Below are positions 20,859-64,000 of a stretch of DNA of 64,000 nucleotides, one piece after another (position 1 is the first letter of the stretch; every line of letters begins with the position of its first letter). The stretch is from Bremia lactucae (lineage: Eukaryota; Oomycota; Peronosporomycetes; Peronosporales; Peronosporaceae): positions 3,670,716 to 3,734,715 of the forward strand of contig NC_090614.1 of NCBI RefSeq assembly GCF_004359215.1, read 5' to 3'. The notes beneath the pieces are model-generated. The model was given only the letters and a program-made list of their open reading frames with translations, searched no databases and was not told where the DNA came from. Both the position numbers and the translations under genes were made by a program.

Positions 20859-21069
20859 ACCGAAGGCGTGCACGAAAGGTTTATGACGTGGTCGAGGTTG
20901 GTGAAGGAGTGGCTTGATTGGTCAAAAATACATGGAATCGAACAAACGATTTCCGATTGAAGAGCACTTGTTGATCTTTACGAGTCAGAAGTCGGTCATT
21001 TTATGAACTTTTACTGCAAGGATTGCTGTGTTTTAAGTGTGTTTTTTTACTATGAGAGAAGGCGACCGA

Positions 21070-21238: not shown

Positions 21239-21361
21239 TTAGTCTGGAACAGGCTTTTGTCCACTCGGGTGCATATCGTCCACCGAGACGACAAGAAAAC
21301 AGAGGTCTTCAGAACACATGAATTTCTCGTATGTAGAGAGCGAGAAACCTCGCTCTTCAAG

Positions 21362-22120: not shown

Positions 22121-22559
22121 AGCGTGAATACCCGTCACACTGTGGAGTTATAATCCGACGGCTGTGCACAAGCACAGGCAGCGTCGAAGTTTGACAACTC
22201 GAATAAGTTAAGTGGGACGAAACAAGGTTTCTTACTCGAAAACAACATCCAAGAAAATTTGAATTGCCTGTCTTTAAGTGACAGTGCAAAAGTCCTAGAT
22301 CAACTGGAGAGTCGATCGCAGAGGATCTCGATGTGGTAGCGCAACCACAGCAAGAGGCAGTTGGGGAGGATACCCCCCCCCCCAAATAATTTTTGTGGGA
22401 CTAAGTCCCCGAAAACCTGTGGTCAAAGGTTCTCAGGTACCTTTAGAAATAATTTCCAAAGAGGAAACTGAGATAATCAATGTCTTAGTGAACAATGAAT
22501 GAAGTGTAGGCGCTTTTACACTTGATATATTAGCGCCTCCGAAGTTAACTTCGGAGATT

Positions 22560-24480: not shown

Positions 24481-24489
24481 TCCCCCTCA

Positions 24490-24790
24490 ACATCCATTGA
24501 TGGTATCAAGTGGTGGGAAGCGCTTTCTTGTTGAAAGTTTATTGAACCACCGTGAGGCAAAGGGGGTTCGAACGAGTTATCTCGTTCGTTGGCGAAGGTA
24601 TCCATCCTTGCATGATAGTTGTGAACCTCATTTCCAACAGATGTTCGGGGTCTCCTCTTGCAGTTCGACGAGACCCATTTTCGTCAACAGAAGGTACATC
24701 GGAGAACGAGCGCTTCCCGCGCTTGTAAAAAGATTGGAGGTTCTCAATCCCTTGACGCATCTCGTAAAAGATGCGAGTCCTCCAATGTAG
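24490..24790 (+). pseudogene. Integrase C-terminal chromodomain (copy A)
   Basis: The frame reads GGKRFLVESLLNHREAKGVR, then TSYLVRWRRYPSLHDSCEP, the classic chromodomain fold of chromoviral integrases (normally ending SWEP; here SCEP). Chromodomains direct integration to particular chromatin. Confidence 0.8.
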
Positions 24791-24859
24791 ATCTTTGAGG
24801 GAATATGCTTCCTTAAGGGCATGCCCAGCACCCTTAAAGCAGCATGGGCAAGAGTCCCC

Positions 24860-25804
24860 CCCCGAGAGGCAAGAAAATACCTGCATCTCTCGACGAACGG
24901 TGCAACTTACAGCGTGCACCTTTAAGGTCCATTTTCATACTGTTCGTGGAAAGAATTTAAGCTTTCAAGCCAGACGCCACGGCCTGTGTTCTGTACATTA
25001 TGTACAAAGGCTGTCCAAGCTTGAAGCAATGGTTTGACATCCTTTGCTCGCTTGCAAGTGTACCACCGATGCCGGAAAAGGCATCGATAAAACAATTTTG
25101 TTTCATCCTCACCAGGCTACTGAAGCCTGGATGAGTCGAATAACGAGATATGATATTGATCATTGGTCATACCAAACCAACCAATGAGATGTCCCTTAGA
25201 GGGTAACTAAGGCATCTTTCAGGAGCGAACCGCAACGTATTGTGGTCCCTATCCTGGCGGCTCATGTTAACGTTAACGTAAACTTGGCCCTGGGAGCAAT
25301 ACCTAGAATATATCCTTTTCGTGTGATGCAAACTAGCAGCAGCACTCTATCCTTCGAAACACTTAATTCTGGTGACGCATACTACCGTCACCAGAGTGGT
25401 CATCGCTCACGAAGTCACCATTAGATGACTTCCCACCAAAGAGGTCCGACGAGTCGAACAACCTCGTCATCACCTCTCTGGGCGTCACGTTATAACGCAA
25501 AGGTTAAGCCGACTCGGCCCCAGGTCATCCGGCGGCTTTTACAGTAGATACTGATGCGGGCAATACAGGTGGCTTGGTCCAGTCACCTTCAATTAGTGTA
25601 GCAAATGACTTGCCACCGTCTCCTGCAATGTCATTACAGATGACATACTCCAGTCACCTCCATTGGGATAAGGAGGTGACATAACCCTAGCAGTAGACGC
25701 ATTAGCGTCTACTGAATATTTGCCTGACTGACAGCTACACTGATCCGTGCATCTACCAGCTTAGCGGCCTCTCGGCCCACGTGCACAGACTTATTCGTCG
25801 CCAT
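24860..25804 (-). pseudogene. Antisense ORF of copy A, opposite strand to pol
   Basis: Reading inward from the 3' LTR on the minus strand, a frame opens at an ATG at 25804 (MATNKSVHVGREAA). It continues in broken frames through RLFDSSDLFGGKSSNGDF and KQNCFIDAF to GARCKLHRSSRDAG. Copy C has M-V-N-K-S, KENCHIDAF and GARYKLHRLSREAG in the same order and place, which argues for a real antisense gene now dead in this copy. Function unknown; the protein is hydrophilic. Confidence 0.55.
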
Positions 25805-26021
25805 CTTGGTCTCGGTCAAAACCTACAACGCAAATAAAATCGGCGTTTTGCTTTGAAGCATTAATGCAAATTACAGGGAAATGCATTAGAATCTTTCCTG
25901 TCACCCTAAATTAGTTATTATAGTGACTGTTGGTTATGGGGGATGTAATGTGGTAGCCGATAATGAGGCTGTTAATGAACCGGCTAAGGTGCGCACGAAG
26001 GAAGCGGATTGGGGGGTCTCG

Positions 26022-26480
26022 TCATATAAGTATTATTTTCTACAAAAGGAATAACAATAATTATTTACTATAAGAGGAAATAAACAAAGAAGTACAAAAT
26101 TATTATCGTTTTTAATTTTGACTAAAATAGTTCCAATAATACCAAATTTGGTATTATTGATGCAATAAGACATTAGCTCTTTTGATTGGTTGATTTAAGT
26201 CTAAATCAACCCCGCCAACCGTTTCAAGACACGATTGTGCGGTGCGCACTGAGGCGCCATACTAGTTAAATATTAAAATAATGAGTTCAGCATTAGATAT
26301 AAGATCGTTAGAAAACTAAATATATAAATACAGTATCGCTTTTCCTAAATTCTAATCCTTTGAATTACTTTTGGTAGCTAAAGACCCTTGGCTACTTTGA
26401 AACCTTCCCCTTACCCCTGTGTACGTGAAGTTTTGAGGCACTTAGCCTCCACTGTAACCAGTGTAAGATCAACTAGTACT
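26022..26480 (+). repeat. 3' LTR of copy A, ends eroded
   Basis: Aligns by eye with the 474-bp LTR of copy F (reverse complement of 31407-31880). Shared blocks include ATAAGAGGAA, GAAGTACAAA, CAATAATACCAAAT-like, GCAATAAGACAT and GTGCGGTGC, then the GTGTACGTGAAG region. The terminal TGT and ACA are not clear. Confidence 0.7.
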
Positions 26481-26703
26481 TACCAGTACTTGCTTATTAA
26501 GTTAGAACAAGATTAAGCATGAAAGTGGCTATGTCTACATTAAGTGCAGTGAAGCCGGCTTTATCGACACGTCCGAGCTTTATAAGAAACGCTGAGCCTA
26601 TTGGTGCCCCACAGCTTCGTTGACCTACTTTGTTGGCGAATGTTTCTGTAGCGACCTCACACTACAACGCCCACACCTTCGGGCTTCGGGCACAGCGAGC
26701 TAG

Positions 26704-27047
26704 TTGGTGGGCGCCTATGGCGTCCAAACACAAAGAAATTAAATTCGTAGATGTCAAGATGCGTTTTCCTGTCTTCTCGTGCGCACTGTGTACTAAGAAC
26801 AAACTTAAAGGCTTGTCTATATTTGATAGGATTCATTTTAAAACCAGTTCTCTGTAGATGTGCATTTCTACTGGCGAGCGTTTGTATTCTAAATACATCA
26901 ACTCGCGGATGATGTCAGACGTCATCCCCTTTAATGTAAATGCACCTGTGTGTCATACACACTGGGGGCACTCCCCGAACCTCACCCGAGTGACAGGTTA
27001 AAAGCTTCACACGAATCGATTGATTTGAACCTTACAGGCGTGTAACA
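26704..27047 (+). repeat. LTR-like repeat of the second family, copy 1
   Basis: Related in direct orientation to 32321-32745 and 45453-45881. Shared blocks are GGTGGGCGCC, CTCGTGCGCACT, CTCGCGGATGA/CTCGCGTAACGGATGA, GTCATCCC, AATGCACCT and ACCCGAGTG. It ends against the truncated integrase of copy F. No internal element sequence in this family adjoins it, so it is probably solo or truncated. Confidence 0.6.
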
Positions 27048-27055
27048 CAAGGTAG

Positions 27056-27610
27056 TTGGCCTATCCGTTCAGAAGGATTTTTTATAATGTAATATCGTCG
27101 ATTATAAGGGTCTCGATCTCCAGAGTAACCTCTGGAGTCGAGATATCGTGTCAACAAAGACACGAGCACGCGTTGGCTGTGATTGACTCCGGGACGGCAG
27201 CAAGATATACCATCTTGTCAAAACGATCAGCAAAAACAAGAATACCATTATTCTTGTGATCGTCTTTGAAAAACCGAAGACAAAGTCCATAGATACGGAC
27301 TGCCAACACTCTGCCGTAATAGCAGAAGTTGTAACGGAGCACGGGATGAAACACTGGATTTCACTCGTTGCCAAACTTCGCAAGCACGTATGCTCCTGCG
27401 GACGACCTCATTCTGGTGTGACCAGTAAAAGGCGCGACTTATAATGTTATAGGTCTTCTCACGTCCACGATGCCAATTTATTGGAGCATCGTGACACTCG
27501 TACATGAGGCGTAAACGTAAATTATTGTGGGTGGGGATGACGACACGAGGTGTGTCGCCAGCTATGGCTGTGAAATACAGTAAAATATTGCGTTTTGTGT
27601 ATCAATCCGT
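27056..27610 (-). pseudogene. Integrase zinc-finger and core remnant, truncated (copy F)
   Basis: The frame 27505-27248 reads MYECHDAPINWHRGREKTYN and IRACEVWQRVKSS (zinc-binding region; the second Cys of C-x2-C is Trp). Core pieces follow, including VSMDFVFGF with the first catalytic Asp. The remainder is cut off next to the 26704-27047 repeat. Confidence 0.8.
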
Positions 27611-27779
27611 TTAGGATTGATATAATTTTGACAATTCCTTCCAGGAATGTTGTGATGATTTTTTCGATGATCCATCAACTCTTTTAGAGCCTTATCTTGA
27701 GCTTCTTAAGCGTCGCCAAGTAATCTTGACGACGGAACAATAATTGTTCCAACAGTGCGCTTATGCACACTGTTGTTTT

Positions 27780-28310
27780 GCGCTGTCGGCTCAAAATCGG
27801 GCCGGCGCGTATGGACATCAGCGACGACATTAAGTCACCCTGGTTTATATTTCACGGAAACGTTATGCTTCGCATAAAAGAACAACCATCTCACATGTCT
27901 TTGCGAGAGATGTGGACTGTTTACGGCTGTGCGTAAAGACATATGGTCCTTATAAACAATGAACGGTCTATCTCCCAAAAGATAGACCCTAAGCGTAGCA
28001 AGTGCTTATTTCATGGAAGGCATTCCTTTTCATGCACAAAGAAATTGCGTTCAGTTGGTTGAAGCTGACGCGACTGATAACAGACGACGCGCTCTGCGCC
28101 GTCTGTGTCATATTGCTTAAATGCACAGCCGATTGCAAAATCGCTGGCGTCACAATGGAATGGCTTGCCTTGGTCTGCAATCGCCAGGATTGGCGATTGC
28201 ATAAAGCTTTGCTTGATATCCATAAGGAACGCCGACAATCAGCGTTCGATGACCACTTTACATTTATCTTTATTAAAGAGGAAATATGTACTGTCATTTT
28301 GGCATAACAA
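27780..28310 (-). pseudogene. RNase H remnant (copy F)
   Basis: The frame 28238-28011 reads SPILAIADQGKPFHCDASDF, AIGCAFKQYDTDGAERVVCY, then RNFFVHEKECL, an RNase H-like domain whose DASDFAIG strand resembles intact Ty3 elements. Sequence beyond is shifted. Confidence 0.8.
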
Positions 28311-28359
28311 CGGAAGTACTTGTGTGAGTACGCCTATAATCCGAGGAAATTTCAAAGTC

Positions 28360-29200
28360 CCTTTACATCGAATAGCATAGGCCAGTCGGTGATTGCCTTG
28401 ATCTTTTCCCGAAATGGCTTACACCGTGTTTACCCAAAACATGTATTTCACTTGCAGCGAATATGCACTTCTTGAAATTTACATACAGCTTATGCTTACG
28501 CATAAGTGTAAGATTCTTTTGGACAAGGGTACGATGTACTTCAACGTCCGACTTTCCGTTCATGGCTCTTCTCTGAACAAAGACGTCATCAGAAAGAACT
28601 CAGTGTGAAATCCCGCACCGATCTAAACAGATTTGTCGCACATCTGCTCAAGGTTGCAGGGGCATTACTAAGCCCATGCACAATCTGAACCCTCCTGTTG
28701 CTTTACACACAGAGAAGGTCGAAGAGCTATGTGGGAAGGTGGGCTCCGTCACGTGGCTCGCTGCCAACCGATCGGCGAAGAATATGTCGATCGCAAATAC
28801 TTGTTCATGACGCAATGTCCACTGCTTCATGACACAGTAATTCAAACCTGGTATCAGGTCGATTTCGTGTCGAGTGCTTTTATCCTTTGGCAACTCGCAC
28901 GATAATGATTCAGGGAGTACATCCTTGAATTTGATCAAAATTTTATACAAAGGATCTGTCTTCAAAGACTCCCAATATTGCGACGTAAATCGTTCAACCC
29001 GAATCTTCTCATCGAGGCCACTTTTGTCGATCGATGAGCTACTGAATATCCGTTCGTTGTCAGGAAATACTATTGCCGACCGAATATCGGCCACGTACTT
29101 GTCATCTGTGACAAGTACGCAGATCTGCTTGACTTTGCCACTACGCAGATCACGCAAGAACCGTTTTGCTTCTACCGTTGGCGATTGAGATATCCCGAAG
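28360..29200 (-). pseudogene. Reverse transcriptase remnant (copy F)
   Basis: The frame 29157-28648 reads LRSGKVKQICVLVTDDKYVA, then DKSTRHEIDLIPGLNYCVMK, the RT N-terminal region. After gaps, RT thumb sequence appears (MNGKSDVEVHRTLVQ, LYVNFKKCIFAASEIHVLGK) to about 28363. The FDD block is lost between them. Confidence 0.8.
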
Positions 29201-29486
29201 TTAAATTCGAAGGTGCTACCAGATCAAGTGTATAAGCGTCTACACGTGATCCGTTGTTAACTAAGACAGTTAATGTCTCACTTACCTCTTTGGGACTTTT
29301 TTTTAAAAAGGTTACTGGGAACCTTTGACCAAAGGTTTCGGGAGACTTAATTCCGCAGATTCTTGAGGACTTGTTACCTCAAGGTTTTTGCGAAATATCC
29401 TCCGCAACTGACTCTAGCTGTGGAGCGCAACCATAGCGAGATCCCTACGATCGACTGTCCAGTCGATCTAGGACTTACGATGTTCC

Positions 29487-30441
29487 TTAAAGACAGGGGT
29501 TGAATATTTTCTTGGATGTTGCTTTCCAAGCAAGCATCCTTGTTTCGAACCACTCAACATATCCGAGTTGTCGAACTCCGACGGCTGTGCTTGTGCGCAG
29601 CTGTCGGACTCTAACTCCATAGTATTCCATAGTATGATGAATATTCCTACTGAGGTCTAATGAAGTCGTGAAAGCAACTAAATCAAAAGGAAGGCGACCA
29701 CTCTCACTCGTAGGACACCCACAGCTTGTGGACGCTTGAACACGTTCATCAGATGGCCAACTATTAAACGTGACGCAGGCATCGTCACGGCTTGATGCTG
29801 CCAATTGATGCATGGCTCGTACTTTTTAAGCCATGGTTATCGTTGGATGACATCGAATTTGTACTCCAAATTTGTCATCCATATTCAGTACGAGAAATAA
29901 TCATCGTACGGTTTACCCTCAACGTGTATTGGAATTAAACTACGCGTTTCTTTACTGTTATAGATGCGCCTGTTGCATGGCGCACTGTCATCCTTGTCAG
30001 AGGTATATCGCGCTCATATTTTTTGAGTCTGCGATCTTCTTGCGATTGGCGTGTAATAAATTTTTTTGAGCCCCTTCAATCAACTAGGGGCAACTTAATT
30101 GAAACTCTTATTATCAGAATGATGACGTTGACCTCATCCCCTGGGACAGTTACACACAATGTTTGTGTGTGAGGACTTTCGTCAAAGGCCTGCAAATTCT
30201 TTTGACGTTGCTGGATCAGAAGGGTACTGACCCCGACCATAGTTTGACGATTCACCTCGCCGTTGCGAATTTGCAAATCTTCGGATCCACGCCCTCCGCT
30301 GTTTCTAGCGAAAGTTCGATCATTTTGCTCAGTGTTTCTAGGCACTTGGCGTGGGGGCAGGCGTTCTGGCCCGTCTTTTGACAACGATTGCAGTTTTGCA
30401 ATCGTTTGCGCTTGAAGAGCGAGGTTTCTCGCTCTCCACAT
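29487..30441 (-). pseudogene. Late gag and aspartic protease remnant (copy F)
   Basis: The frame at 30441-30076 carries the Pro/Arg-rich region after the knuckle and THTQTLCVTVPGDEVNVIIL, found again in copies A and C. Protease pieces follow to 29487, including MHQLAASSRDDACVTF, homologous to NWQHQAVTMH-adjacent sequence in copy A. The active-site block is not intact. Confidence 0.6.
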
Positions 30442-30799
30442 ACGAGAGGTCTATAGGTTCGGAAACTCCGTTTCTTGTCGTCTCGGAGGACGATAAGTTT
30501 CAGAGTGGACGAAACCCTGTTTAAGGCTGAAGTCCTCCTATTTTGCTATAGAGATCGCTTGGGCGAGCGACTAGAGTTTAAGCTGAAAACAGGTGATTCT
30601 TAACCGGACCGCCTGCAAGGTCTTCAATAAACACAGTTACCTGTGTTTGTTCATCAATTAGATGACTTAGCAAAGAAACAACTAACCAGGTATCGTGTAT
30701 GCTGGGCATACGAGTGAAGGCAACGCTTGGTCTACTTCAATCCAGGAGCTCGGCTCGAGCTCTCAATTTGGCACGTGGTGGCTTAAATGTTTGTCTGAG

Positions 30800-31274
30800 C
30801 CGGTTTGTAAAGACCTAAAAACCAATAGGTCGTGAAGCTTGCGCCTTAAGGCTCAAGATTTGGCACGTTTGGCTGAGTTGGACATGCCAAATTTCACTTT
30901 TGTCGCATCAATGATGATGCAACAATCTTTAATGGCGTCATCTAATTCGACGAACCGTCTTAAAAGGGAGTCGCTTTCGACTGCCTTAAACTCAAAGATT
31001 ACGATCTTTACGCTTCCGAAAGCGTCGACCCGCTAGCAGCATGTAAATGCTGCTGTCTCAACAGCTCTAACTGTTGATCACACTGTTTTCTCAACATCTC
31101 CGCGCATTGGGAGCCTTGCTGGTGAAGCAAGGCTACCGTTTCCTGGGCCCCGTCGAGTTCATATTGTATGAACTCAGCTATGGCCGCATGTGGTTCATCT
31201 AAGTTCAGAGTGACAGCATAGCGCCAACGGTTGGCTCGCTTACGACCGAACTCATACGTTCGATCGCTCTGCAT
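30800..31274 (-). pseudogene. Gag N-terminal and capsid remnant (copy F)
   Basis: The frame from ATG 31274 reads MQSDRTYEFGRKRAN, then a helical Gln-rich stretch (IQYELDGAQETVALLHQQGS) also present in copy C gag. Past a stop, the next segment (ESDSLLRRFVELDDAI) looks like the capsid region of the family. Confidence 0.65.
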
Positions 31275-31406
31275 TCATTATCACAAATAAGGAGTAATCC
31301 TTTCACGCGTTGCGTGATGGCTATCTTGAGTGGGCTTAAAATCTCCCTCCATCATCCATGAATGAAATGTGCGTGGGCCGTTGAACAAACTACGAAGGCT
31401 ACCAGG

Positions 31407-31880
31407 TGTTACGGGGCATACTGATAACAATACTACTGACTACAGTGAAGTTGGGGCGCCTCGACTACTTCACGTACACGTCGTGCAGAAGAAGGATCTA
31501 AGTAGCTAAGAAATCTTAGCTACTAAAGGTAATGTCTAAGGCTTTAAATCGAGAAAAAAATCAACTGTATCAATATATTAAGTTCCTACGTAATGAATTT
31601 TGTATCGACTACTATTTTATTAGACTATGTATGGCGCCTACTTGAGCACCGCACATTAGTATCTTGTTACAATTGGTGGCGTTGATTCAAACTTGAATTA
31701 CCGAATCAATAAAACCGATGTCTTATTGCGTCACTATGACTAAATTTGGTAATATTGGAACTAATAAAACAAAATTACGATCAAAATTTGTACTTCTTGC
31801 TTGTCTGTTCTCATAATATAGTATTAATTGTTCCTCTTATAGGAAATATATTTAACGTAACGGGACACCTCGTTACGACA
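31407..31880 (-). repeat. 5' LTR of copy F (474 bp)
   Basis: Read on the minus strand it starts TGTCGTAACGAGG and ends GCCCCGTAACA, followed by CC and TGGTAGC. The TG...CA ends and the adjoining candidate primer-binding site (complementary to a tRNA 3' end, possibly initiator Met) define the borders. Confidence 0.75.
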
Positions 31881-32320
31881 CCTAGAGAAATATAAAACTG
31901 AACAGCCTACATCTCCAAATAGACTTATTAAAAATGAAAGTGGGAGCGATGCACCGCTTTCGGCGCATGAATGCCCTCTGTACTACAAAAGATTATACTC
32001 CCAGCATTAAAGCACCTTTTCAGTGCTGTTGGGGGCTAAAGGCCAACCTTTTGACCGACCTCTAAATTGGTGGTTACCTACTCGTTCAAAAGATCAACAG
32101 ACATAGCATTATGGCTAGCGGGATCAGATCTGAAAGGAGTACATTAACTCTCACATATTTGACTTTTGGCTATAGGGGCACCCAATGTGACCACATGATG
32201 ATTTTAGCGCCTGAGATGCAGGCGGACACGCCGTAAATGCGGCCACGCTCTACTTAGACACACACCCTAGCACAGCGAGGAAGTGGTTAAAACAGCTTCT
32301 CTTGCGTGCAGTGAGGTAGT
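31881..32320. other. Spacer between copy F and an LTR-like repeat
   Basis: About 440 bp without a recognisable gene. It may be eroded internal sequence of the second element family, but no motif proves it. Confidence 0.35.
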
Positions 32321-32745
32321 TGTGGTGGGCGCCTTAGCGATCTCACCCAACGCACTAAGTACTCAAAGTGTCGTCACGGGAGCGGTAATCCGGCTCCTCG
32401 TGCGCACTTAATAAGTAGAAAGTATTTTTCAGACTGATTTATATTTAATCGTTTTAAATAATTACCTTTTTTACCAATCAAAAATGTCATCTCTATAGAT
32501 AACACTTAATATGTATTGCGAGCATATCTTTCAAGATATCTCGCGTAACGGATGACGCTAGGCGTCATCCCTCCTAATGTGAATGCACCTATCTGCATAT
32601 CATACACAAGGATTGGTCACAATGTGAGCCACACCCGAGTGCTGGGTCTAATTACTATCATTTAGTAATTGACCATCACCTGTAAAGTTTACCAAGTGTA
32701 CTTAATGGGGACTGTGTAAAATTAGGGCAACTTTAGCCCGTTACA
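32321..32745 (+). repeat. LTR-like repeat of the second family, copy 2 (probably solo)
   Basis: Starts TGTGGTGGGCGCC and ends CCCGTTACA; closely matches 45453-45881 in direct orientation. No element interior follows; host DNA leading to SMC1 begins within 550 bp. It contains two strong inverted repeats: 32518-32544 (12 paired bases, one bulge) and 32550-32570 (9 bp, loop 3). A solo LTR left by LTR-LTR recombination is the simplest reading. Confidence 0.65.
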
Positions 32746-33286
32746 TGAAATGCTGTTTATCTTATGCTGTACCTTACTTCGGTTAGGGTGCTTTTTCATG
32801 TCAGACTTCATGGTGAGTTAAAATGTGAGGCTAGAGGATTTAGTCCGTTCGACTTGCAAAGGTCGCGGAAGAAATACAAACATGCAATTTGATCTGAGGA
32901 GGCCTTACAGCACTAAGCACGAATGAATCGTGCAATACAAGTTTTACTTGTTCTTTACCATCTGCTGGCATTAAGGTACTAACTCGATAACGATAAAGTT
33001 CTTAGGGACCTCAAAAAACAATCACTTGTATCGTACATAATTTTCAGAGAGTGGTGGCTTCGAACCAGGAGATCGCAGACTCAAACTTATTGAGCTCATA
33101 GAATTACGAAATAGGTGCATTTTAACCTTTTTATTTGTGAAAATTACATTCTCGAGCCACCAAACGTTTTTAGCGAATAGGGAGTTTTCGCTTAAAACTG
33201 TGTAAACCACTTTATCGCACATGCATATCCGCACCAGTAGACCACCAAACGGCAACGAGCGTTGATCCCTCGGTTACCTCTCTATC
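32746..33286. other. Upstream region of SMC1
   Basis: About 540 bp between the LTR-like repeat and the SMC1 start codon. No gene seen. The SMC1 promoter must lie here, close to inserted LTR sequence. I could not identify a specific promoter motif. Confidence 0.4.
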
Positions 33287-50480: not shown

Positions 50481-50902
50481 TGTAACGGGGCACTGCCAAA
50501 TTGTACTGCTTTAGTACAAGTCCACTTCGCACTGCTTCAGTGCGAGTGGCGCCTCACGTCACTTCACATACACAAGTACTCTTTAATATACTTGCTACAA
50601 AGAGGGTTAAAAGTAAACTGTATTTAATATAATTGAGCTCTTCCGTTACCATCTATTGATACTAACTTAATTATTAACTAATACAGAATATTTAATAAAA
50701 GTCTTATCTGTCTCTCCTTTGCGCGCGTCTAGCGCTGACGTGACCGCGGAGCAAGCAGATACAATGGTCTATATCTATCAATGGATAATCTTTCCTAATA
50801 TTACCATGTAAGTAATATTCTCCAAATATTATCTACCTTTTAGATAACATATTAATTAACAACCTTTGAGTGTCAATTCATGTAACTATACACCTCGTTA
50901 CA
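50481..50902 (-). repeat. 3' LTR of element C (422 bp)
   Basis: Matches the 57646-58081 LTR end to end. Just inside it, on the minus strand, a purine run AAGGGAAGGG (plus 50906-50915) sits three bases before the LTR start and fits a polypurine tract. Confidence 0.85.
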
Positions 50903-50980
50903 ATACCCTTCCCTTAAACGAAAATTACTTTGACTGTCAGTGGATATAGTGGTCACTATAAGTCCATTTTTTAAAAAACG

Positions 50981-51941
50981 ATGTTGATTGGTCAGAACCA
51001 TCTTTTTCAATTCTATCGCATGGTTAACAAGTCCATGCGGTGTGCGAAAAGTGCAGCGCCTTCGGCTGCGGTTCATGCAGCTGCGGGCGACGCATTATTG
51101 TCTCTTGCGGAAGACGTTTTGTCTGCTGTAGTATCATATTCTCCCAGAACACTAGATAATGCGCGTGCACATGGTGAGTCACCACGTGAGTGCGAATTCT
51201 CTTTGAAGGTCGACTACGAATGCGAGATGGACGAAATGGCCGACTCTGGGAGAGTGGAACAGTCGCCTAATAGTTGTCAGGCGACTGACTATGAGCCTTT
51301 GAATGAGACGGCTCAATCGGATAGACGTGCTGATAGCGTTCGCTATAGCATGTTTGATTCCGACGATGAGGATGATTCCTCATCGCCAGCACCGTCTCCC
51401 GTACCGTCACCCGCACTTATTTCTGTGCGTGGCGATGACGATGGCGTAAGCCATCGTTATTAAAGTTCTTCTGGTACCCCTGCTTCAGTGGGTACCACTT
51501 AAAAGAGTGCAGACAATAAAGTGTCGCGTCTTGCCCCTGAGGAGAAGCCATGGCTTCTGCCCGAAAGGCTAGATAATGGCTTGTCTGGAGAGACTACTCC
51601 TCACAATAAATATCCCTATTTTTGCGACAAAGCTACATGGCCTTGATCATAGCGCGAATGTTCTTCGCGCAAAGGAAAATTGTCATATCGATGCTTTTCT
51701 TAAGCATCGATATTATAGTGGCAACAACAAACGAGATAATATCTCGTTGATGTATGCCTAGAGCGCATTCATTCGCAATGTCAAAGACATTGGACACGAA
51801 GACTGACTTCGAAGACTTAAAGTGATTCGCGTTAAGTTTGAAAGACGAACTTTAAGCGGTGCAAGGTATAAATTGCATCGGTTGTCACGTGAGGCTGGGC
51901 TTCCATGCCTCACGTGGGGTGATCCCTATCCGGTTGTGTAG
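50981..51941 (+). pseudogene. Antisense ORF of element C, opposite strand to pol
   Basis: Just inside the 3' LTR, a 160-codon plus-strand frame opens (50981-51463; an internal ATG at 51020 gives MVNKSMRCAKSAAPSAAVHA). It is Ala-rich, then acidic (MFDSDDEDDSSSPAPSP). Past stops, related coding resumes with KENCHIDAFLKHRYYSG and GARYKLHRLSREAGLPC, ending at the stop at 51939-51941, just before the chromodomain end. Copies A and D hold the same motifs in the same place. No known domain; no membrane segment. Confidence 0.6.
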
Positions 51942-51999
51942 ACAACTCGAAGAGGGTAAAAGAGGATGTCTATTCTCTTTCGTCGCCCTGGGGGGGGGC

Positions 52000-52727
52000 T
52001 CGCATCTCTATAGAGATGCGCGATGCGATTGACGTTTTGCGATCGATTTACAAGCGCCAGTGGCGCGTGTTTTCCGATGGACCTTCTGATCCATCGGATG
52101 GGTATCGTCATACTGACGGACGAGGCCCTCAACGTCAACCACCAGATGAAAACAAGGCTCCCAGCTGTCATGCAAAGGTGGATGACCACGCCAGCGAACC
52201 AGATAACTCGTTCGATGCCCCTTCACCTCATGGTGGTTTAAATATGTTCCACCAGGAAACGTTGACCAACGTGGGAATCCACCAATGGTTGTGGTGGAAG
52301 AGGAAAAATTAGATCCAAACCGTGTGTCGTATCTAGAGTCAAAGATCGACAGACTCGACCGCTACCTCCATTTAAAGGACGTTGGAGCAGATGGTGCAGG
52401 CTCATTAAATCGAACGGTTAAAAAACCGTTCGAAGAGTGCGTACTCAATGTTGGAGTACGAGCGGAAGTATCACGCTCTTTGTGACGAACTGTCGTCAGC
52501 CCATCGCAATTTTGAAAAACTTCGAATTCGGCATGAAAACTTCCAGACTCAACTTGAGAGTCTAGTTCGTGATTACAATTTGTTTTTCGGAATTCTTGAG
52601 AGGGGTGGTCAGTTCCGCCCGCAGAAGAAACCGCGTACTGATGGTAGGGCGGAGCTGACCAACCTAAATCGTAGGATACGTTCGCATCCTTCGTGGCAAT
52701 TTTATTGTGTACGCATTGCCTCTGCAA
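52000..52727 (-). pseudogene. Pol linker and chromodomain (element C)
   Basis: The frame 52727-52362 is the Ser/Glu-rich linker found after integrase in this lineage. The chromodomain frame (52226-52008) reads GHRTSYLVRWRGHPPLHDSW followed by EP. Plus-strand open frames over the same bases are shadows. Confidence 0.75.
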
Positions 52728-52753
52728 TGCAGCACACGGAATGGGTCTATGAA

Positions 52754-53942
52754 CTAGGGTGATAGTTTACTGCTTCCCATATTAGTGACTACAGCTCTAG
52801 GTAAGTTTGCCGTAGATAGTAGTACTAGGTCATCAATTATTAATGAAAGGACATTTGTTTTTCCATGTTTGTCTGAGTTCCGTTTCTGATGGTCCACTGC
52901 GTAAGCAATGGAATCCTTTACGTAACGGACTACTGATTCTCGAGCCAGGAGAAATTCATCTGCTGACTCATTTGTTTTGTTTTTCTCACTGCGCTTTGTG
53001 CGCACTGCCATGAGATCTTTCTCATCTTCGAAGTCGATTCCTTTGACATCGATATCATTCGCGTCGTAGGTAACTTTAACGCGCGATGAGCATGAGCCAG
53101 AAATGGCTTTGCTTGTGCGAGTCCACCCCAATCAAACTTGAGGATCCATCTTACTGGGCGGGTATGCGTAAGTGGCGTAAGCCATTCACGAAGAAGTGTG
53201 TATTCGTTGTAGACGCATGCACCGAATTGTTGATGGCGAATTTGACCATCGGTAAAATCTCGCTCTAACTCGGATACGATTTGACGTAACCTTGAAGTAT
53301 CTCTTCAAGGCCGCGATTTTCGTGTTCCGTCTGAACATCTATCTCCGGATGATCAGAAGTTGACATAGTAAGCCGTGTTCGGATCTATCGGAACACGGAT
53401 TGCCAAAACCCCGCCGTAAACCGTGGATATCTATCCGAGACCAATTCACGGGGTAAATTGTGGAGTTTGAATACCGTGTCGATAAAGACACAAGCACAAC
53501 CCGGATCCGTAATCGACTCTGGTGCCGCAGCAAGATGTACCATCTTGCCGAATCTGTCTAGAAAAACGGTGATCCCATTGTTTTTGTGATCGTCTTCGGG
53601 AACTCAGAAGATGAAGTCCATGGATACGGTCTGCCAACATTCTGCCGGAAGTGGTAGAGGTTTGAGAGGTGCACAGGATGCAGTGCTAGGCTCCACCCGT
53701 TGACATACCACGCAAGCACGAATGTACTAGCCCACAAACTGATACTGGCGGGGCCAGTTAAAGTCGCGATTTACTGTTAGGTAAGTTCTCTTACGTCCAC
53801 GATGCTCACTTGTTGGTGCATTATGACACTCATACATGATGCGCAAGCGCACATCATTGTGAGTTGGGACGACGACATGTGGAGTATCGCCGTCAACGGC
53901 TGCGTAAAACAGTGTGTTGTGTATCGATCGGATGACGATCAA
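52754..53942 (-). pseudogene. Integrase remnant (element C)
   Basis: The zinc-binding frame (53942-53727) reads RIMYECHNAPTSEHRGRKRT. Core pieces in two frames follow around 53339-53640. The C-terminal frame (53131-52754) reads FLLARESVVRYVKDSIAYAV ... DDLVLLSTANLPRAVVTN. Frameshifts separate them. Confidence 0.8.
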
Positions 53943-53953
53943 TATAAAATTGG

Positions 53954-54560
53954 TTAATCTGTAAAATATTTATTGGATGGATTCATCCGAGTGATCATTA
54001 AGCGCGGTAGGTCTTTATCTTCTGCGTAGGCTTTCTTTATGTCATCAAACAAGGTTGATGATGGAACACTTGTAATAAGTATTGCAACAGTGATATTATT
54101 ACCACTCTTGGAGTGCGCAACCGGCTCGGAATCGCGTCGGCGTGATACAATCCATCGATGACATTCATTACGTCGTCTAGGTTTATGTTCCAAGGAGAGA
54201 CTATACTTCGCGAAGAAGGATAGCCACCTCGCCATTCTTTGCGAGAGGTGTAGGCTGTTTATGGCCGTGCGGAATGACGCAAGGTCCGTATATACGATGA
54301 ACTGCGTATCTCCTCGGAGATAGACCCTAAAATTAGCCAGTGCATATTTCATGGCTATGAGTACCTTGTCATGCACTGGGCAATTGCGTTCTGCTGGTTG
54401 CAGCTGACGCGATTGGTTTCAGACGACGCGCTCCACGCGTCTGTATCGTACTGCATTAACGCACAGCCGATTGCAAAATCGCTAGCGCAACAGACCACAT
54501 GGAATTGTCTGTCTTGATTTGCTATTGCCAAGATGGGCGATTTTATCAAGCTTCACTTGA
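53954..54560 (-). pseudogene. RNase H remnant (element C)
   Basis: Two abutting frames. Upstream is SPILAIANQDRQFHVVCCAS followed by DFAIGCALMQYDTDA; then 54376-53954 gives LRGDTQFIVYTDLASFRTA, LSQRMARWLSFFAKYSLSLE and the linker LFDDIKKAYAEDKDLPRLM. The order matches the intact neighbour E. Confidence 0.85.
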
Positions 54561-54847
54561 TACCTTTAAAGGAACGCTGACAATCAACGTTTCATAACCA
54601 TTTCTCGTCTTTTTTCAAGAGGCGAGAGAGATGAACTGTCATCTCGGCATAATTGTGGGCGTGCTTGTGCAAGTACGCCGCTAATCCAAGGAACTTTCTA
54701 AGTCCCTTGACATCGACTGGAATTCGTCAGTCGGTAATTGCCTTAATATTTTCGGGATCAGGACGCACGCCATGTTTACCGTCGGTGCACCCAACAAACG
54801 ATATTCCGCTTGCAGCGGATATACACTTCTTAAGTTTTGCGTACAAG

Positions 54848-55763
54848 TTATGCTTTCGCATAAGTGTAAGAACCTGACGGGGGAACGTGAGTTTTATGAA
54901 ATTTTACGTCCATCTTTCCGTCCATAGCCCGGCTATGGACAAATACATCGTCAAAATAACTCGGTGCGAAGTCTCGCTCCGGTCTCATCAGATTTGTTAC
55001 GCATCTATTGAATGTTGCAGGGGTGTTCCTAAACCCCTGTGGCATCTAGCCATTCCTAGATTATCCCACTGAGAGCGCTCACTTATGTGTATGGGATGTC
55101 CCATTCACGCATAAGGATCTAAAAGATTCATCTATCAGATCCATATGACGAATAGATGGACTCTTAGACATATTATCTATGATATCGTCTTGTGTAGGTA
55201 TCGGCGTTTGAGCCGGTACCGTTGCAGTACCGTTGCAGTACCGTTGCAGCTATCAATTTATTGATCCGCCACCCTCCTGTAGCCTTTCCCACACTGAAGG
55301 TCGGTGAGCTGTGTGCTGATGTTGACTCTCTTGCATGGCGCGCTTTTAGTCGATCAGTAAAGAATTTATCGATCGCAAGTACTTGCTCACGAGGCAGTGG
55401 CCGCTGCTTCATGAAACAGTACTTCGAGCCCGGTTTGAGCTCGATTTCATGTCGAGTGCCTTTACCCTTAGACAACTCGCATGGAACTGTTTCAGGGAAT
55501 ACATCCCTGAATTCAATCAAATCCTTATATAAAGAATTTGTCTTTAGTGACTTCCAGGATTGAGTAGCATATCTCTCGATCCAAGTTTTCACATCGAGGA
55601 CACTTTCGTCCATCGGTGAGCTGCTGAGAATCCGTTCGATCTCTGCAAAAATTACCGCTGACCGAATATCGGATACGTTTTCCTCCTCTGTGACGAGTAC
55701 GCAGATCTGCTTGAGTCTACCACTATGCAGAATTATAAAATACCGATTGGGTTCTAGGGCCAA
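54848..55763 (-). pseudogene. Reverse transcriptase remnant (element C)
   Basis: The frame 55763-55173 carries GRLKQICVLVTEEENVSDIR, LPREQVLAIDKFFTDRL and FSVGKATGGWRI. It breaks near 55200, where a 12-base unit is repeated three times. A second frame (55045-54848) gives MPQGFRNTPATFNRCVTNLM and SYFDDVFVHSRAMDGK, the RT catalytic block, intact. Confidence 0.85.
55212..55250. repeat. Short tandem repeat, 12-base unit, three copies
   Basis: AGTACCGTTGC-type unit repeated head to tail inside the reverse transcriptase remnant of element C, at the point where the frame breaks. Probably slippage after the element died. Confidence 0.7.
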
Positions 55764-56457
55764 GAAATTAAGTTATCTCTGAAGTTAACTTCGGAGGCGC
55801 ATACAGATCAAGAGTGTAAGTGCCTACTCTTGATCCGTCATTAACCAAGACATTCGATGTCTCGGTTTCTTCCTGGGATTTACCCAGAGGCTGCCGAGGG
55901 ATCAATCCATCGGGATGCTGAAGTCAAGTCACTTCAGCATTAACTATTTGAGGGGATTTCTTCTCAAGTACATGGGGACTTATTCCTCAACGTCTTCCGA
56001 CTGTAAACGCGCTATCACATTCGGGTCCTCTACGGTTGACTCTCTACTCGACCTAGGATCATCGTGTTGTCCCTTTTGGACAACCGGTATTTTCCTTATT
56101 TGTCGCCCACTAGGCGTACATTAATGTCTTAATCCACTCGACTTCTTCGAGTGGTGGACCTTCGGCGCTGCCTGTGCAGTAGCACAGCCGCAGGCAGCTG
56201 ATTCCACAGTGGGATTAGTAATCACTCTGTTATCTTGTGCAGTCGTACTAACGACCGTACCACAAGTGACGCCATTGCACTACATTTACACGCTTGTAGG
56301 TGCTCCAAAACGTTCATCAGATGGCCATTTGATGAACAAGTAACAGGCATTTTTACGGGTCGATGCTGATTCTTGGCTCATACTTTCTGAGCCAAGAGAC
56401 ACCTAGGTTGACATCAAATTTGTCATCCAAATCTACTACGAAGAAATCATCATCATA

Positions 56458-56990
56458 CTATAAATCTTTTAACATGTAGTGAAACCTTACTACGCATTTC
56501 AACACTGTTATCGATGCGCCTGTCGCTAGACGCACCGTCATCCTCGTTAGGGGGATGTCGCGCTCAACATATTTGGGCCTACAATCCTCTAGCGACTGGC
56601 GACGAATAAAGTAATTCGACGCCCCGCAGTCCGCTAGAGCTCTAAGTGATAAATCATTTGTCACTTTTAACTTCAAGGTGGTGAGGGATACTTCATCACC
56701 AGGTGCAGACACATAATGATTATGTGTCTGAAGCAACTTTAGTCAAGAGATTTGCAAATTCTCTTGAGGTGGCTGGATCAGTAGGGCGTTGCGCCCCTAC
56801 TGACCCCGACCGTTTTTGGCGGTCCGTCCCGCTGTTGCGATTTAGTTTTCATAAAATCTCTTGGTTCGAAGTTTTAAACAACGTCGGAGCCGTGACCATT
56901 GCTCTTTTTGACAATCGGTTTATACTTACGTTCAGTACTTCTCGGTACTGGGCGTGCGCCACTGCGCTCATGAGCGTATGGTCCTAACTT
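56458..56990 (-). pseudogene. Aspartic protease remnant (element C)
   Basis: The frame 56736-56458 reads NHYVSAPGDEVSLTTLKLKV, LRALADCGASNYFIRRQSLE, then TVRLATGASITVLKCVV. DCGAS stands at the usual D-S/T-G active site; in this lineage DCGAS-like blocks recur. Confidence 0.8.
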
Positions 56991-57049
56991 TTGACAGCGA
57001 TTGCATTTCTGCAATGAACTCAGCCCTAGGCGGTTCAAAGGTCTGTTTG

Positions 57050-57595
57050 AGCCGAGCTTAAAAAGCCTCTAGCGACCCAAAGACATATGAATCGCGCAAT
57101 ATAAGGCCTAGATCCAAATTCCAAGTTTTGGCACGACCTGCCAAATTCGAAAGAGCAAATGCGACTTGCATTTGCTCGTTGACGATGTAACGAGCCCTGA
57201 TGGCATCGTCCGACTCGACAAACCATTTTAAGAAGGAGTCTTCTTCGACAGCTCTATACTTAGAGATTCAATCTTTAAGGTTCGGGACGATGCGTGTGTG
57301 TCATACCAGGTACAAGGATCTGTACCTATTGCAACTTCAACAGTTCTGTCTGTTGAGAGCCTTGCTGATCAAGCAAGGCTACCCTCTTCTTCGCCTTGTC
57401 AAGCTCATGTTGTATGAACTTGGCGATGGCTGAATTGAGGGCATCTCTGTCCAAACAGGACAGCATGGCCAAGATGGCATCAATCCCTACGGTTGGACTC
57501 ATTCGTTCGACCGCACTCCTTTCTCTGTCACCTAGAAAGGAGTAGCTGTCACGCGAAATGTGGTGCGTCATTCCCTTATCATCTATCATGTCCAT
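57050..57595 (-). pseudogene. Gag remnant (element C)
   Basis: The frame from ATG 57595 reads MDMIDDKGMTHHISRDSYSF and then a helical stretch ending KKRVALLDQQGSQQTELLKL, homologous to copy F gag. Capsid-like pieces continue to about 57050 in other frames. Confidence 0.65.
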
Positions 57596-57633
57596 GGTAG
57601 ATGATAGAACTGTGGTCTCAAGACTGACTACAA

Positions 57634-57645
57634 AGTGCTACCAGG
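57634..57645 (-). other. Putative primer-binding site of element C
   Basis: Read on the minus strand, TGGTAGCA begins two bases after the 5' LTR. Its first 7-8 bases fit the complement of an initiator Met tRNA 3' end. Copy F has TGGTAGC at the same spot. Confidence 0.45.
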
Positions 57646-58081
57646 TGTACCGGGGCACTGCCGACTTGTACTGCTACAAGTCCACTTCGCACTGATTTAG
57701 TGCGAGTGGTGCCTCACGTCACTTCACGTACACAAGTACGTGCAGAAGAAGACTCTCTTTAGAAAAAATCCTTTGAAGAGGGTTAAAAGCAAGCTGTATT
57801 ACACAGAATTAAGTTCTTCTCTTTCTATCTATTTAATACTAACTTAATCTTATATTAATATATAACATGTAAAATAGTCGTATATGTCTCTCTATTTTCG
57901 CACGTCCAGCGCTGACTGGACCGCGGAAAAAGTATATATAATGGCCTATATGTACTAATGGATAAACTTTCTGAATATTACTACGTAAGGAAATATTGTC
58001 CAAATATTCTCTCCCTTTTAGATAATGTATCAATTAGCAACCTGTAAGTATTAATTTCATGTAAAGTTACACCCCGTTACA
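57646..58081 (-). repeat. 5' LTR of element C (436 bp)
   Basis: On the minus strand it opens TGTAACGGGGTG and closes CCCCGGTACA. A TATATATAC stretch inside (plus 57930-57945) is a plausible TATA region. The inner side is followed after CC by TGGTAGCA, a putative primer-binding site. Confidence 0.85.
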
Positions 58082-60510: not shown

Positions 60511-62960
60511 TTTCTATTGGAGGGCGCGCCTTTCAAGGCATTAATTTATTTGCAATCTCTTTACTAGCGCGCCAAACGCTCTAAGCCCGATGGTCGCTGT
60601 GGACCAAGGTACGGGCTTTGTCGTACTGATCAACGAGACCCGAAAAGTCATTCTCCAATAAGAAGCGAGGCTTTCAAATATCGTCACACGTATGGTGTTA
60701 AAGATGCGCTTCTCACCACCTGAGCCTATCATCGGATGTGAGGAGAAGAATAAACGAGGTCCGACTTATTTGTTGGATCTGCTTGCTAGATGACATGTTC
60801 GCAATCGCGTCCTACGCAATTCAGGGTTAGGGAGGTTGTAAAACATGAGCTTAATATCGACGGTGCAATGCCCTTCATTCGGATGACCGAGCGGTGTTTG
60901 CGATTACTCAACTGGCGCGAAAGACCGTTTAAGCCCCTTCGCATCGGGATAGCGACGGCTCGTCACAAGAGATTAAATTCGTTGAGGATCGAATTTTTCG
61001 TCAAAGTCGGTAACATCAGCTTCTCGCTGATTTTTTGGAGCGCGAGGGCTATATTCGCCCCTAAAAGAAGCTTTCGTACTGGTAGTACTGACGAAAGGTT
61101 TAATATTAGATGTAGAATGCGTGCGCATCTACGAGGCAGCTCGATCGTGTATGCCTTTCCTTGGCGCTGCACACCAAACCAGCCGATATACTTGGGCAGC
61201 GTATTGTTACTGCCAACATTCGTCAACCAAGTTTAGGTAAATTTATGTAGACAGTGGGAATAGGTCTTAACCTTAAAAAAAGCATTTATTCTTCCATATT
61301 TGTCAGCGAATTGTTTCTGTCGATCCATTGCATCATCGATGGAATTCTGTATACAACATACCACTGCTTCTCAAGCCAACAGGATTTCACCTGCGGACTT
61401 GTTTTGTTTGTTTCAGTGCGCCCGGTGGAACTGCGTAGAGTTTATTCGCCTCATCAGTAGGAGATTTATTCTCTCACTTGTAATGCAATTGTCGATGCTG
61501 GGTGTATCAGCATCTTCAATATCAAAGTCAGCAGCAGTCTCTATGCTATTGCTGACTTTTTTGTCTTCTTCGATGTTGATTAGATTAACATGGGTAGCTT
61601 ACGCATTCACTACTGAGTCAATATGTGATGAAAAAGATCCAGATCCAGCTTTGCTTGAGGGAGCTAACCGCCTTAAACTAGAGGTATACTACTAGACGAT
61701 GAGTATGCTTGGTAACGATAGCCATTCACGATAAATGGTTTATGCTTTGTCGATGCATGCACCGAGCTGCCGATAGTAAATTCAGCCATCGGCAAGAATT
61801 TGCTCCGACTCATAATCGAGCGGACGCATCGTTGAATTATCTTAGTGGGGACATGACTTGCATGTCTGTCCGAAAATCTTTCGGGATGATCAGAAGCTAA
61901 CATCTCTAACCGTGTTCCAACAAACTAGAACAGAAATTGCCAAAACTCCGCCGTGAACTGGAATTTCTGATTCGGAACCATTACGGGGTATGTCATAAAG
62001 TCGAACTATTATTTCTATGTGAGGAGTACAGCCTTCGGCTGACTGCAATAAAACATACCATCTTGCGTAATGGTTTTACAAACATCAAGACACAAAATGC
62101 CTGCACTTTGCCGGAGTTAGCAGAGGCTGTATAGAAGCACGGGATGATTAGATAATCTGCACAGATCGACAAACTATGCAATTAAGTATGTATTTGCGCA
62201 CAAATTATTTTGGCGAGGACAGCAAAAATCGCGACTTACTCTTCTCGCCTCCACGATGCCTACTTATTCGTGCATCGTGATACTCATACATGATGCGCAC
62301 GTACAAATCATTGTGACTGAGAACGACGACACGAGGTTTCGCCGGCAATGACTGTGTGATACAGCTACCCGTTGCGTGTTGTGTATCGATTCGATGAGGT
62401 CCAATCCAATGTCGAATAACCTTTTAAAAATGGTTGTGATAGAATTATGAGGTGACCGATCAAACCTTCAAAAACCTTGTTCTCTCTAAAGGCTATTTCA
62501 AATTCGTCAAGTGATGCTGACGACGGAACACTTGAAACTTGTGTTGCAACAGTGGGCTTATTCGTTGTTATCGGCGCAGCCCGCTCAAAATTAAATAGGC
62601 GCGAAAGTGCATCAGCGGCAACATTACGTCGCTGATATATCACGGAAAAGTTATGTTTCGCGAGGATGGATAACCACATCGTTATTCTTTGCGAGATCTG
62701 TGGAATGTTTACGTCAGGGCATAAAGACTCATTGTCCGTAAACACAATGAATGGTCTTTCTGATTAGAGATAGACACAAAATTATCCGGTGCATATTTCA
62801 AGCAAACAGTTCGTGGAATGCACTAAGTGACTAATTACGCTAAGCTGGTTACAGGACTACTGGTAGAGAGCGCTATCTAAGCCATCAGTGTAAGACTGCA
62901 TCAATTGCCAATCTTGGCAATTGCATCAAGCTTTGCTTAATACCTTCAAATAAACGCTTA
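60283..62960 (-). mobile_element. Strongly decayed Ty3/gypsy element D (minus)
   Basis: Pieces of pol lie in order on the minus strand. RNase H is at 62745-62365 (FTDNESLCPD, ISQRITMWLSILAKHNFSVI). Integrase core end is at 61903-61673 (SRSKFLPMAEFTIGSSVHAS). Integrase C-terminus is at 61226-60963 (LPKYIGWFGVQRQGKAYTIE). A chromodomain remnant lies near 60720-60541. Bits of reverse transcriptase reach about 63100. No LTR recognised. Confidence 0.75.
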
Positions 62961-63086
62961 CAAGTGGCGTGAATGAAAGCTTGAGTAAACTTGAAAATGT
63001 ACTGTCATTTCGGCATAGTTGCGCGAGTAACGCCGCTAGAAACTTTCACAGTCCTTTGCTATCGTATGACACAGGCCAGTCGGTAA

Positions 63087-64000
63087 TCGCCTCAGTCTTT
63101 TGAATATCAAGGCCTGGGCCGTGATGCCTCACAAGCCACAAGAAGTGGTGATCTTACTGTTGCAACACTCACTACGAGTGGTTCGTCATCAACCTTAGTT
63201 GATGACATAAAGAAAGCCTACAGAGAAGATAAGGACCTTCTATGTTTGATGGATCATTTAATGAATCCATCCGATAAATCTTTTAAAGATCTACCGGCTT
63301 TATATCGATCGTCATCCGATCGATACACAACACGCAACATCGTACTGTACTTAACAGCCGATGCCGGCGACACTTCACGTGTCGTCGTCCCTACTCACAA
63401 TGATTTGCGCTTGCGCATCATGTATGAGTGTCACGATGCTCCAACAAGTGGAAATCGTGGACGTGAGAAGACTTACCTCACGGTAAGTCGATACTTTTAC
63501 TGGCCCCGCCAGTATCAGTTTGTGCGCAAGTACATTCGTGCTTGCGAGGTTTGTCAACGGGTGAAGCCTAGCCCTTCATCCCGTGCACCTCTTCAACCTC
63601 TACCACTTCCGGCAGAGTGTTGGCAGTCCGTATCTATGGACTTCGTCTTCGGATTTCCCGAAGACGAACACAAAAACAATGGAATCCTTGTTTTTGTAGA
63701 CAGATTCAGCAAGATGGTACACCTTGCTGCGGTACCAGAGTCGATTACGGCTCCGGGTTGTGCCCGTGTCTTTATCGACACGGTATTCAAACTCCATGGG
63801 TTACCCCGTGAATTAGTCTCGGATAGAGATCCGAGATTCACGGCGGCGTTCTGGCAATCCGTGTTCCGATCTCTCGGAACACGGCTGACTATGTCAACAT
63901 CTGATCACCCGGAAACGGATGGTCAAACAGAACGCGTAAATCGCGTCCTCGAAGAGATACTTCGAGGTTACGTCCAATCGTATCCGAATTGGAGCGAGTT
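63087..64000 (+). CDS. Open integrase frame of a Ty3/gypsy element (E), runs off the window
   Basis: 304 codons without a stop, open at both sides of what is visible; homology begins near 63111, so the first codons may be junction sequence. It reads linker STLVDDIKKAYREDKDLLCL, zinc-binding RIMYECHDAPTSGNRGREKT and IRACEVCQRVKPS, then the DDE core: VSMDFVFGFPEDE (first Asp), LVSDRDPRFTAAFWQS (second Asp), exact D-x35-E to DGQTER. Closest to copies C and F. All three catalytic residues are present, but the second zinc-finger His (His in C, F and B) is Asn here. Integrase inserts retrotransposon DNA in the nucleus. It abuts RT sequence of element D in opposite orientation near 63108, so its 5' half is missing. 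Confidence 0.85.

Follow-up and report, generated by a model that had tools for sequence, protein, structure and literature searches.

Why should the coding sequence of an ordinary retrotransposon integrase be crowded with hairpins? The question arises at the right-hand end of the window, the 64,000-nucleotide stretch of Bremia lactucae DNA analysed here. An open frame for a Ty3/gypsy integrase of the family that we call A runs there on the forward strand from 63087 to 63998, truncated by the window end. As originally predicted from the letters alone, its protein is a normal integrase, with an H2C2 zinc finger and an rve core (PF17921, E 7.4e-19, and PF00665, E 2.4e-9, in a Pfam search), and the frame shares 97.4% identity over 851 nt with a set of nearly identical copies at other places in the genome. 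Hairpins were counted as perfect stems with loops of 3-8. The frame contains 11, 10, 8 and 5 hairpins with stems of at least 6, 7, 8 and 9 bp, compared with means of 1.33, 0.52, 0.19 and 0.05 in 5000 codon-permuting synonymous shuffles, none of which reached the observed numbers; for stems of at least 8 bp, the shuffled maximum was four against the real eight. The hairpin-rich frame of the original prediction is thereby borne out. It survives the first refuting test named with it, similar numbers in synonymous shuffles, and its claim that the signal is carried by synonymous choice holds. Its figures need correction: about 18 inverted repeats become 11 when only perfect stems of at least 6 bp are counted, seven perfect stems of at least 8 bp become eight, and the expectation of 0.06 for such stems was too low.

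Nine of the ten hairpins listed at the outset are perfect stems in the places given for them: 63185..63206 (stem 9, loop 4), 63303..63325 (9, 5), 63470..63489 (8, 4, not 7, 6 as listed), 63642..63668 (11, 5), 63670..63697 (10, 8), 63764..63783 (7, 6), 63817..63836 (8, 4), 63859..63884 (11, 4) and 63947..63967 (8, 5). The tenth, 63557..63584, is bulged as described, with 10 pairs and one bulge, and the identical sequence folds in this way in copy L002. The list had lacked a perfect stem of 7 with loop 3 at 63498..63514 and a stem of 6 with loop 5 at 63368-63384. Each of 50 aligned integrase copies has at least four perfect stems of at least 7 bp.

The focus on the integrase proved too narrow, as elements are folded over their whole length, out to the LTR-like ends, and the folding recurs in several Ty3 families. 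The window was mapped in 160 bins of 400 nt, with DNA energies compared to 40 dinucleotide shuffles. Values of z at or below -4 occur in 37 of the 52 bins within A-related elements and in 1 of the 108 other bins, six more of which have z between -3 and -3.5. The strongly folded bins within the elements comprise 20 of 31 at 20.8-33.2 kb, where two copies lie head-to-head, 15 of 19 at 50.4-58.0 kb, and both bins from 63.2 kb. The borders of the folded stretches are sharp and coincide with the ends of A-related elements, inside which the weak bins include 26401 (z -0.5), 53601 (z -0.4) and 21601 (z -1.4). An old element on the reverse strand at 50515..57840 (ends approximate) carries LTR-like direct repeats at 50515-50657 and 57675-57833 and is 82.7% (51797-54775) and 83.4% (55390-56230) identical to a family A copy; z is -3.0 or lower in 18 of its 19 bins, the exception being bin 53601. 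Two older elements with approximate borders, at 21000..26000 on the forward strand (aligned parts 64-76% identical) and at 26000..33200 on the reverse strand (67-78%), are folded too, so that the signal persists in elements that have diverged to 64-83% identity with a family A copy over their aligned parts. The most diverged piece, a remote A-related fragment on the reverse strand at 61532..63101 (62.6-70% identical), is weakly folded, apart from a single surviving hairpin at 62902-62923 in which a pair is compensated. Folding also covers the LTR-like repeats and stretches beyond the recognised pol frame, with an RNA folding excess of 24-35% in two such stretches; these copies have decayed, and some of the stretches may have been coding in a live element. 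An integrase-specific function is ruled out by the folding of whole elements. Composition or codon usage is rejected as the cause, since the excess survives synonymous as well as dinucleotide shuffles.

Host genes of the same window served as a control. Nine open frames (19,329 nt) hold 30, 5 and 2 hairpins of at least 6, 7 and 8 bp against 26.0, 7.3 and 2.0 expected, which is no excess. In Pfam searches, seven of them gave a kinase, a longin/MON1 piece, two ankyrin-TIR proteins, a cullin, an SMC hinge piece and one frame without a match, and the remaining two flank the SMC hinge frame on either side. The observation survives the second refuting test named at the outset, an equal density in host genes, and the remark that SMC1, MON1 and CUL3 show no similar density holds for these frames.

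By its domains, family A is a Ty3/gypsy retrotransposon, a chromovirus. In copy L019, RNase H (PF17917, PF17919) precedes PF17921 and PF00665 in one frame, and a chromodomain (PF00385; E 1.2e-6, 28.8 bits against a cut-off of 25.1, model positions 2-32 of 53) lies downstream of the integrase; the window copy ends at the window border before any chromodomain position. Long terminal repeats are probable for the family, given the direct repeats that flank the related element at 50.5-57.8 kb. In integrase, RNase H, chromodomain and the LTR-like ends of its window relative, the family resembles other Ty3/gypsy chromoviruses. To our knowledge, end-to-end folding is not a known trait of that group, and no report of it was found among titles and abstract openings of the open-licence literature.

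To place the window copy among its relatives, loci were sampled by an H2C2 model and by reverse transcriptase matches, with the best 150 of 6202 and the best 150 of 5625 candidates scored. They were grouped by eye into families A to F from translations and pairwise identities, in a single genome that may contain further Ty3 families. Folding excess was predicted with DNA parameters as the mean of both strands over 30 synonymous shuffles per frame. It is 106% in A, the family of the window (90-117% per copy, n=6), 79% in D (76-82%, n=3), 46% in F (38-51%, n=5), 35% in C (n=1), 25% in B (23-27%, n=3) and 20% in E (17-24%, n=4). The controls have means of 7-12%, with Copia elements at 4-20% (n=5, mean 12%), LINEs at -8 to 20% (n=5, mean 7%) and host frames at 2-20% (n=8); LINE L069 (20%, z -4.6) and host frame 35951 (20%, z -3.2) stand somewhat above the rest. 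The LINE and Copia means rule out folding as a general trait of reverse-transcribed elements, and the values of 20-25% in B and E rule it out as a trait of all Ty3 elements. Families A, B and C are rich in perfect hairpins of 8 bp or more, which are rare in D, E and F. Family D has no perfect stem of 8 bp; to take it for unfolded on that ground is wrong, as its longer, bulged stems give the second strongest folding of all. In A (one copy) the excess no longer grows beyond a pair span of 30 nt, and in D (two copies) beyond about 60 nt; in both families the folding is local and mostly Watson-Crick.

Abundance was gauged with a 36-base integrase tag at up to 3 mismatches, which counts tags and not elements. 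The tag occurs 1062 times in the genome for A, 842 for D, 478 for F, 18 for E, 16 for B and 15 for C. The three families with the most tag copies are the three most folded of the six sampled (Spearman 0.77, p 0.07), and more rounds of copying could be the cause of the folding rather than its effect.

The two strands fold alike in the strongest families. With DNA energies, z is -17.6 for the sense and -17.8 for the antisense strand in A, and -15.1 and -16.4 in D. By an RNA measure modelled on that applied to viruses (RNA energies of 350-nt pieces against dinucleotide shuffles), the sense and antisense excesses are 47-50% and 45-47% in A (three sequences), 33-35% and 36% in D (two), 15-23% and 7-30% in F (two), 17% and 14% in C, 10% and 10% in E, and 6% and 9% in B, compared with 4% and 3% in one Copia element, 4% and 0% in one LINE, and -4 to 4% in SMC1 and CUL3. 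The symmetry breaks in C (RNA z -8.5 sense, -5.7 antisense), and F copy L060 leans to the sense strand (RNA excess 15% against 7%). Of the five families A, B, C, D and F, all but C show a larger z with DNA than with RNA parameters on the sense strand; on the antisense strand the exception is D. G-U pairs are depleted: they make up 4.7% of the sense RNA pairs in A, compared with 11.8% in shuffles, and 3.4% in D, compared with 13.3%. The minimum-free-energy pairs of L002 and L092 together include 41 G-U on the sense and 54 on the antisense strand. Where a stem has just one mismatch, it is A-C, G-U or other in 23, 18 and 22 of 63 unique cases; the numbers are 7, 3 and 5 for 11 frames drawn from A, B, C and F, with duplicates between related copies included. 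Among the stem variant states that two or more of 40 distinct A integrase copies have in common, 30 are A-C, 16 G-U, 21 other and 4 an alternative Watson-Crick pair, and A-C is the commonest state at 5 of those A-C variant pairs. Singleton states (A-C 37, G-U 34, other 75, alternative Watson-Crick 8) are expected to be mostly decay. In families A and D, then, the process makes no distinction between G-U and A-C: its substrate is either DNA or RNA of both polarities.

The integrase copies also preserve steps in the formation of individual stems. At 63817-63836, the 3' arm reads CCACGG, CCACGA, CCAAGG, CCAAGA or CCGAGA across the 50 copies, all of which encode Pro-Arg. The CCGAGA arm pairs fully, and the partial arms, which differ by synonymous changes, keep a mismatch next to the loop with the distal pairs formed; the exception is copy L087 (TCGCGG), apart from private changes in other single copies. 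The stem at 63470-63489 exists in 6-, 7- and 8-pair forms through synonymous changes on both arms, and in three other A stems the main young group has one pair fewer than other copies have, young and old being judged by divergence only and not from a rooted tree. Against the diverged relatives in the window, pairing-preserving double changes occupy 28 of 611 pair cells, compared with 15.0 (sd 4.2) in matched controls (28 or more in 11 of 2000), and 71.5% of pairs are kept, compared with 62.8% (reached by 0 of 2000 control sets); the hairpin at 63303..63325, for instance, is compensated in the relative at 27600-27622. Sixteen loops have changed, 13 of them to a sequence nearer the direct form and none to one nearer the inverted form, with 3 ties; spacer inversion, a mark of template switching, was thus not found among them. 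Shared variants at third positions number 6 of 75 in stems and 31 of 211 outside (p 0.16), which is no significant constraint on stems. Stem identity is 0.849, against 0.843 elsewhere, in the 82.7% relative, and it is lower than elsewhere in 2 of 8 comparisons; much of the divergence at stem and other sites is probably decay after insertion. A scan of 727 clusters of changes found 40 reverse-complement matches, compared with 5, 3 and 2 in three control modes, mostly decay of existing stems. The scan is unpolarised, and multi-base changes of one arm are not separable in it from decay; the two stems that could be traced are stepwise. Direct repeats within 100 nt are also in excess in five frames chosen as hairpin-rich (15 of length 8 or more against 8.7, sd 2.6; 7 of length 9 or more against 1.9, sd 1.5). 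They were rejected as the driver, since the excess is milder than that of hairpins in the same frames (25 against 0.7).

These results bear on a mutational origin, in which the growing strand would fold back during reverse transcription and copy its own other arm (quasi-palindrome correction), the most-replicating families gathering the most hairpins. Such a process would account for stems that are short and perfect and enclose short loops (4 nt in 37 of the 98 hairpins left after removal of same-length hairpins at least 75% alike), for Watson-Crick, strand-symmetric stems in A and D, for the inclusion of LTR-like ends, and for stronger folding in families with more tag copies; the mild direct-repeat excess might hint at copying slips. 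The homogenisation of the arms of imperfect repeats in coding DNA, described for template switching between inverted repeats in yeast genes in the accessible part of PMC8604942, offers a likeness, from which the 0 of 16 spacer inversions here depart. Copying of a whole arm also sits poorly with partial stems that differ by single synonymous steps, with the distal pairs formed and the loop-proximal one unformed at 63817-63836 (L087 excepted), with the bulged stems of D, and with the low mean excess of LINEs, which are reverse transcribed too. The stepwise forms, the compensation and the lack of inverted loops together fit selection for pairing better than template switching. The two causes originally proposed are therefore only partly supported: template switching is disfavoured, and we regard a mutational origin as rather unlikely, though a serious contender; selection for folding is favoured, with the proviso that plain selection on the sense RNA does not fit.

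Selection on the sense genomic RNA alone, for packaging, stability or reverse transcriptase pausing, would be the usual virus-like case. The sense RNA excess of A and D, the folding of the whole element, and the sense bias of C and of copy L060 suit it. It misfits because the antisense strand folds as well in A and D and because G-U, which does no harm in RNA, is no commoner than A-C, either among single-mismatch stems, among shared variants or in the sense pairs of L002 and L092; this explanation is already strained and seems to us improbable. Selection or tolerance at the level of DNA would place the hairpins in single-stranded minus-strand cDNA or in cruciforms of the integrated element. 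The larger z from DNA energies in 4 of 5 families on either strand, stems of 8-12 bp with loops mostly of 3-6, and the like treatment of G-T and A-C are consistent with it. We know of no stage of the Ty3 cycle for which the entire cDNA would have to be tiled with hairpins, and we hold this explanation to be improbable to a similar degree. Chance, composition or an assembly artefact is refuted and retains next to no probability, given stems in 50 of 50 integrase copies, a family tag at 1062 places, an excess that survives two types of shuffle, and host frames without the signal.

The hairpins are real, a strong and as yet unexplained property of abundant Ty3 families in one genome. They are best described as GORS-like local folding that is strand-symmetric in the two strongest families, A and D. 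To selection for local self-pairing on both strands, with small-RNA silencing as its likeliest agent, we give an even chance of being the cause. Its points are the excess over synonymous and dinucleotide shuffles, the sharp borders, the strand symmetry, the shortage of G-U, the partial stems, the compensation and the stronger folding of the families with more tag copies. Against it weigh stem sites that are not clearly better conserved than the rest, the three A stems that are shorter in the main young group, the raised controls L069 and 35951, the sense bias of C and of copy L060, and a link to copy number that comes from six families. While the elements were active, changes that placed more of the sequence in short self-paired stems, synonymous ones in the coding parts, would have been favoured, with pairing itself the target rather than particular structures, as in the genome-scale ordered RNA structure (GORS) of viruses. 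The most likely pressure, we infer, would be host small-RNA silencing acting through transcripts and guides of both polarities: a self-folded stretch would be a poor target, and a guide cut from it would fold on itself too. Only Watson-Crick pairs protect both polarities, since a G-U on one strand is an A-C on the other. The scale of 30 nt in A suits the small-RNA idea better than the 60 nt of D. The main counter-argument to silencing evasion comes from maize, where, according to the part of PMC10760457 available to us, structured transposon regions map more small RNAs. A bolder form, in which the elements would carry a sequence-wide anti-silencing code, with slices of 20-60 nt self-complementary on both strands so that transcripts, antisense and small RNAs all fold on themselves, and in which three families would thereby have reached hundreds to a thousand copies, is a speculation that we rate as doubtful.

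The resemblance to GORS can be drawn closely. As described in the accessible text of PMC7642675, GORS consists of several hundred consecutive local stem-loops through coding sequence, in excess over shuffles and poorly conserved in position. Here, too, the folding energy of coding regions exceeds that of sequence-order shuffles, and folding is conserved rather than pairs: A, B and C pair at mostly different columns, with some pair positions in common and compensated. A hairpin that family B copy L042 has in common with older A copies lies in the motif FSKMVHF and uses the same codons; a G-C to A-T compensation in it accompanies a Leu to Phe change in the protein. The system works like GORS and is denied strict membership, because it is a chromosomal LTR retrotransposon and no positive-strand RNA virus. 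It differs further in the equal antisense folding of A and D, in the inclusion of LTR-like ends, in the depletion of G-U (the terms antisense, minus strand and G-U are absent from the accessible text of PMC7642675), and in strength. The RNA excess of A (45-50%) compares with 7-9% in HCV, 15% in SARS-CoV-2 and 23-24% at the highest among vertebrate RNA viruses in that text, a comparison that is approximate because the shuffling algorithm differs.

Structured LTR retrotransposons are also on record in maize. The LTR palindromes of Sireviruses (Bousios et al. 2016, as cited in the accessible part of PMC10760457) likewise link LTR retrotransposon hairpins to silencing. They are clusters of palindromic motifs in a cis-region of Copia LTRs, whereas the 98 hairpins here are dissimilar and spread along whole Ty3 elements, coding sequence included. 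The miRNA-like structures of maize, in the available text of PMC10760457, share with our data that LTR elements are structured and LINEs hardly so, and a trade-off with small RNAs is discussed there. Those regions resemble pre-miRNAs, whereas ours are stems of 8-12 bp, for which synonymous controls were included and strand symmetry was tested.

If the folding is selected, a chromosomal retrotransposon can devote much of its synonymous freedom to self-pairing, with, by the same approximate comparison, about double the folding strength of the most structured vertebrate RNA viruses in the accessible text of PMC7642675, and the most abundant sampled families fold most. An old question would then become testable, namely whether transposons can evade small-RNA silencing by sequence structure alone. 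Should reverse transcription instead have generated it by mutation, palindrome correction would here have shaped coding sequence to an extreme degree. Under either cause, the less folded families B, C and E are natural controls in the same genome.

Several observations concern the surroundings and relatives of these elements. Among 120 listed of 1553 protein relatives of the integrase, the nearest three are 82-86% identical, a Peronospora sequence is 72% identical (94% coverage), and Phytophthora sequences are about 50-63% identical. A 64% identical integrase filed under Aeromonas veronii (P0068) is most likely eukaryotic contamination of a bacterial record. A scan of viral contigs gave 10 pattern matches and no relatives. 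In L014, two tandem family A integrase pieces at 1511-2361 and 2561-3411 are 97.4% and 93.8% identical to the window copy. Within the window, a forward-strand fragment at 48200-50480 is 75% identical to family F (L060) and weakly folded (z -0.5 to -3.2). Outside the A-related elements, bin 45601-46000 is strongly folded in isolation (z -7.5), with a 12-bp stem at 45817-45845, and is perhaps a solo LTR or a small non-autonomous element. The head-to-head elements at 21000-33200 form an imperfect inverted pair with arms 76-93% complementary. They are flanked, one on each side, by the two ankyrin-TIR frames (12864-17426 and 40471-45066, both on the reverse strand), large open frames in which TIR domains come after ankyrin repeats; the two are apparently paralogues.
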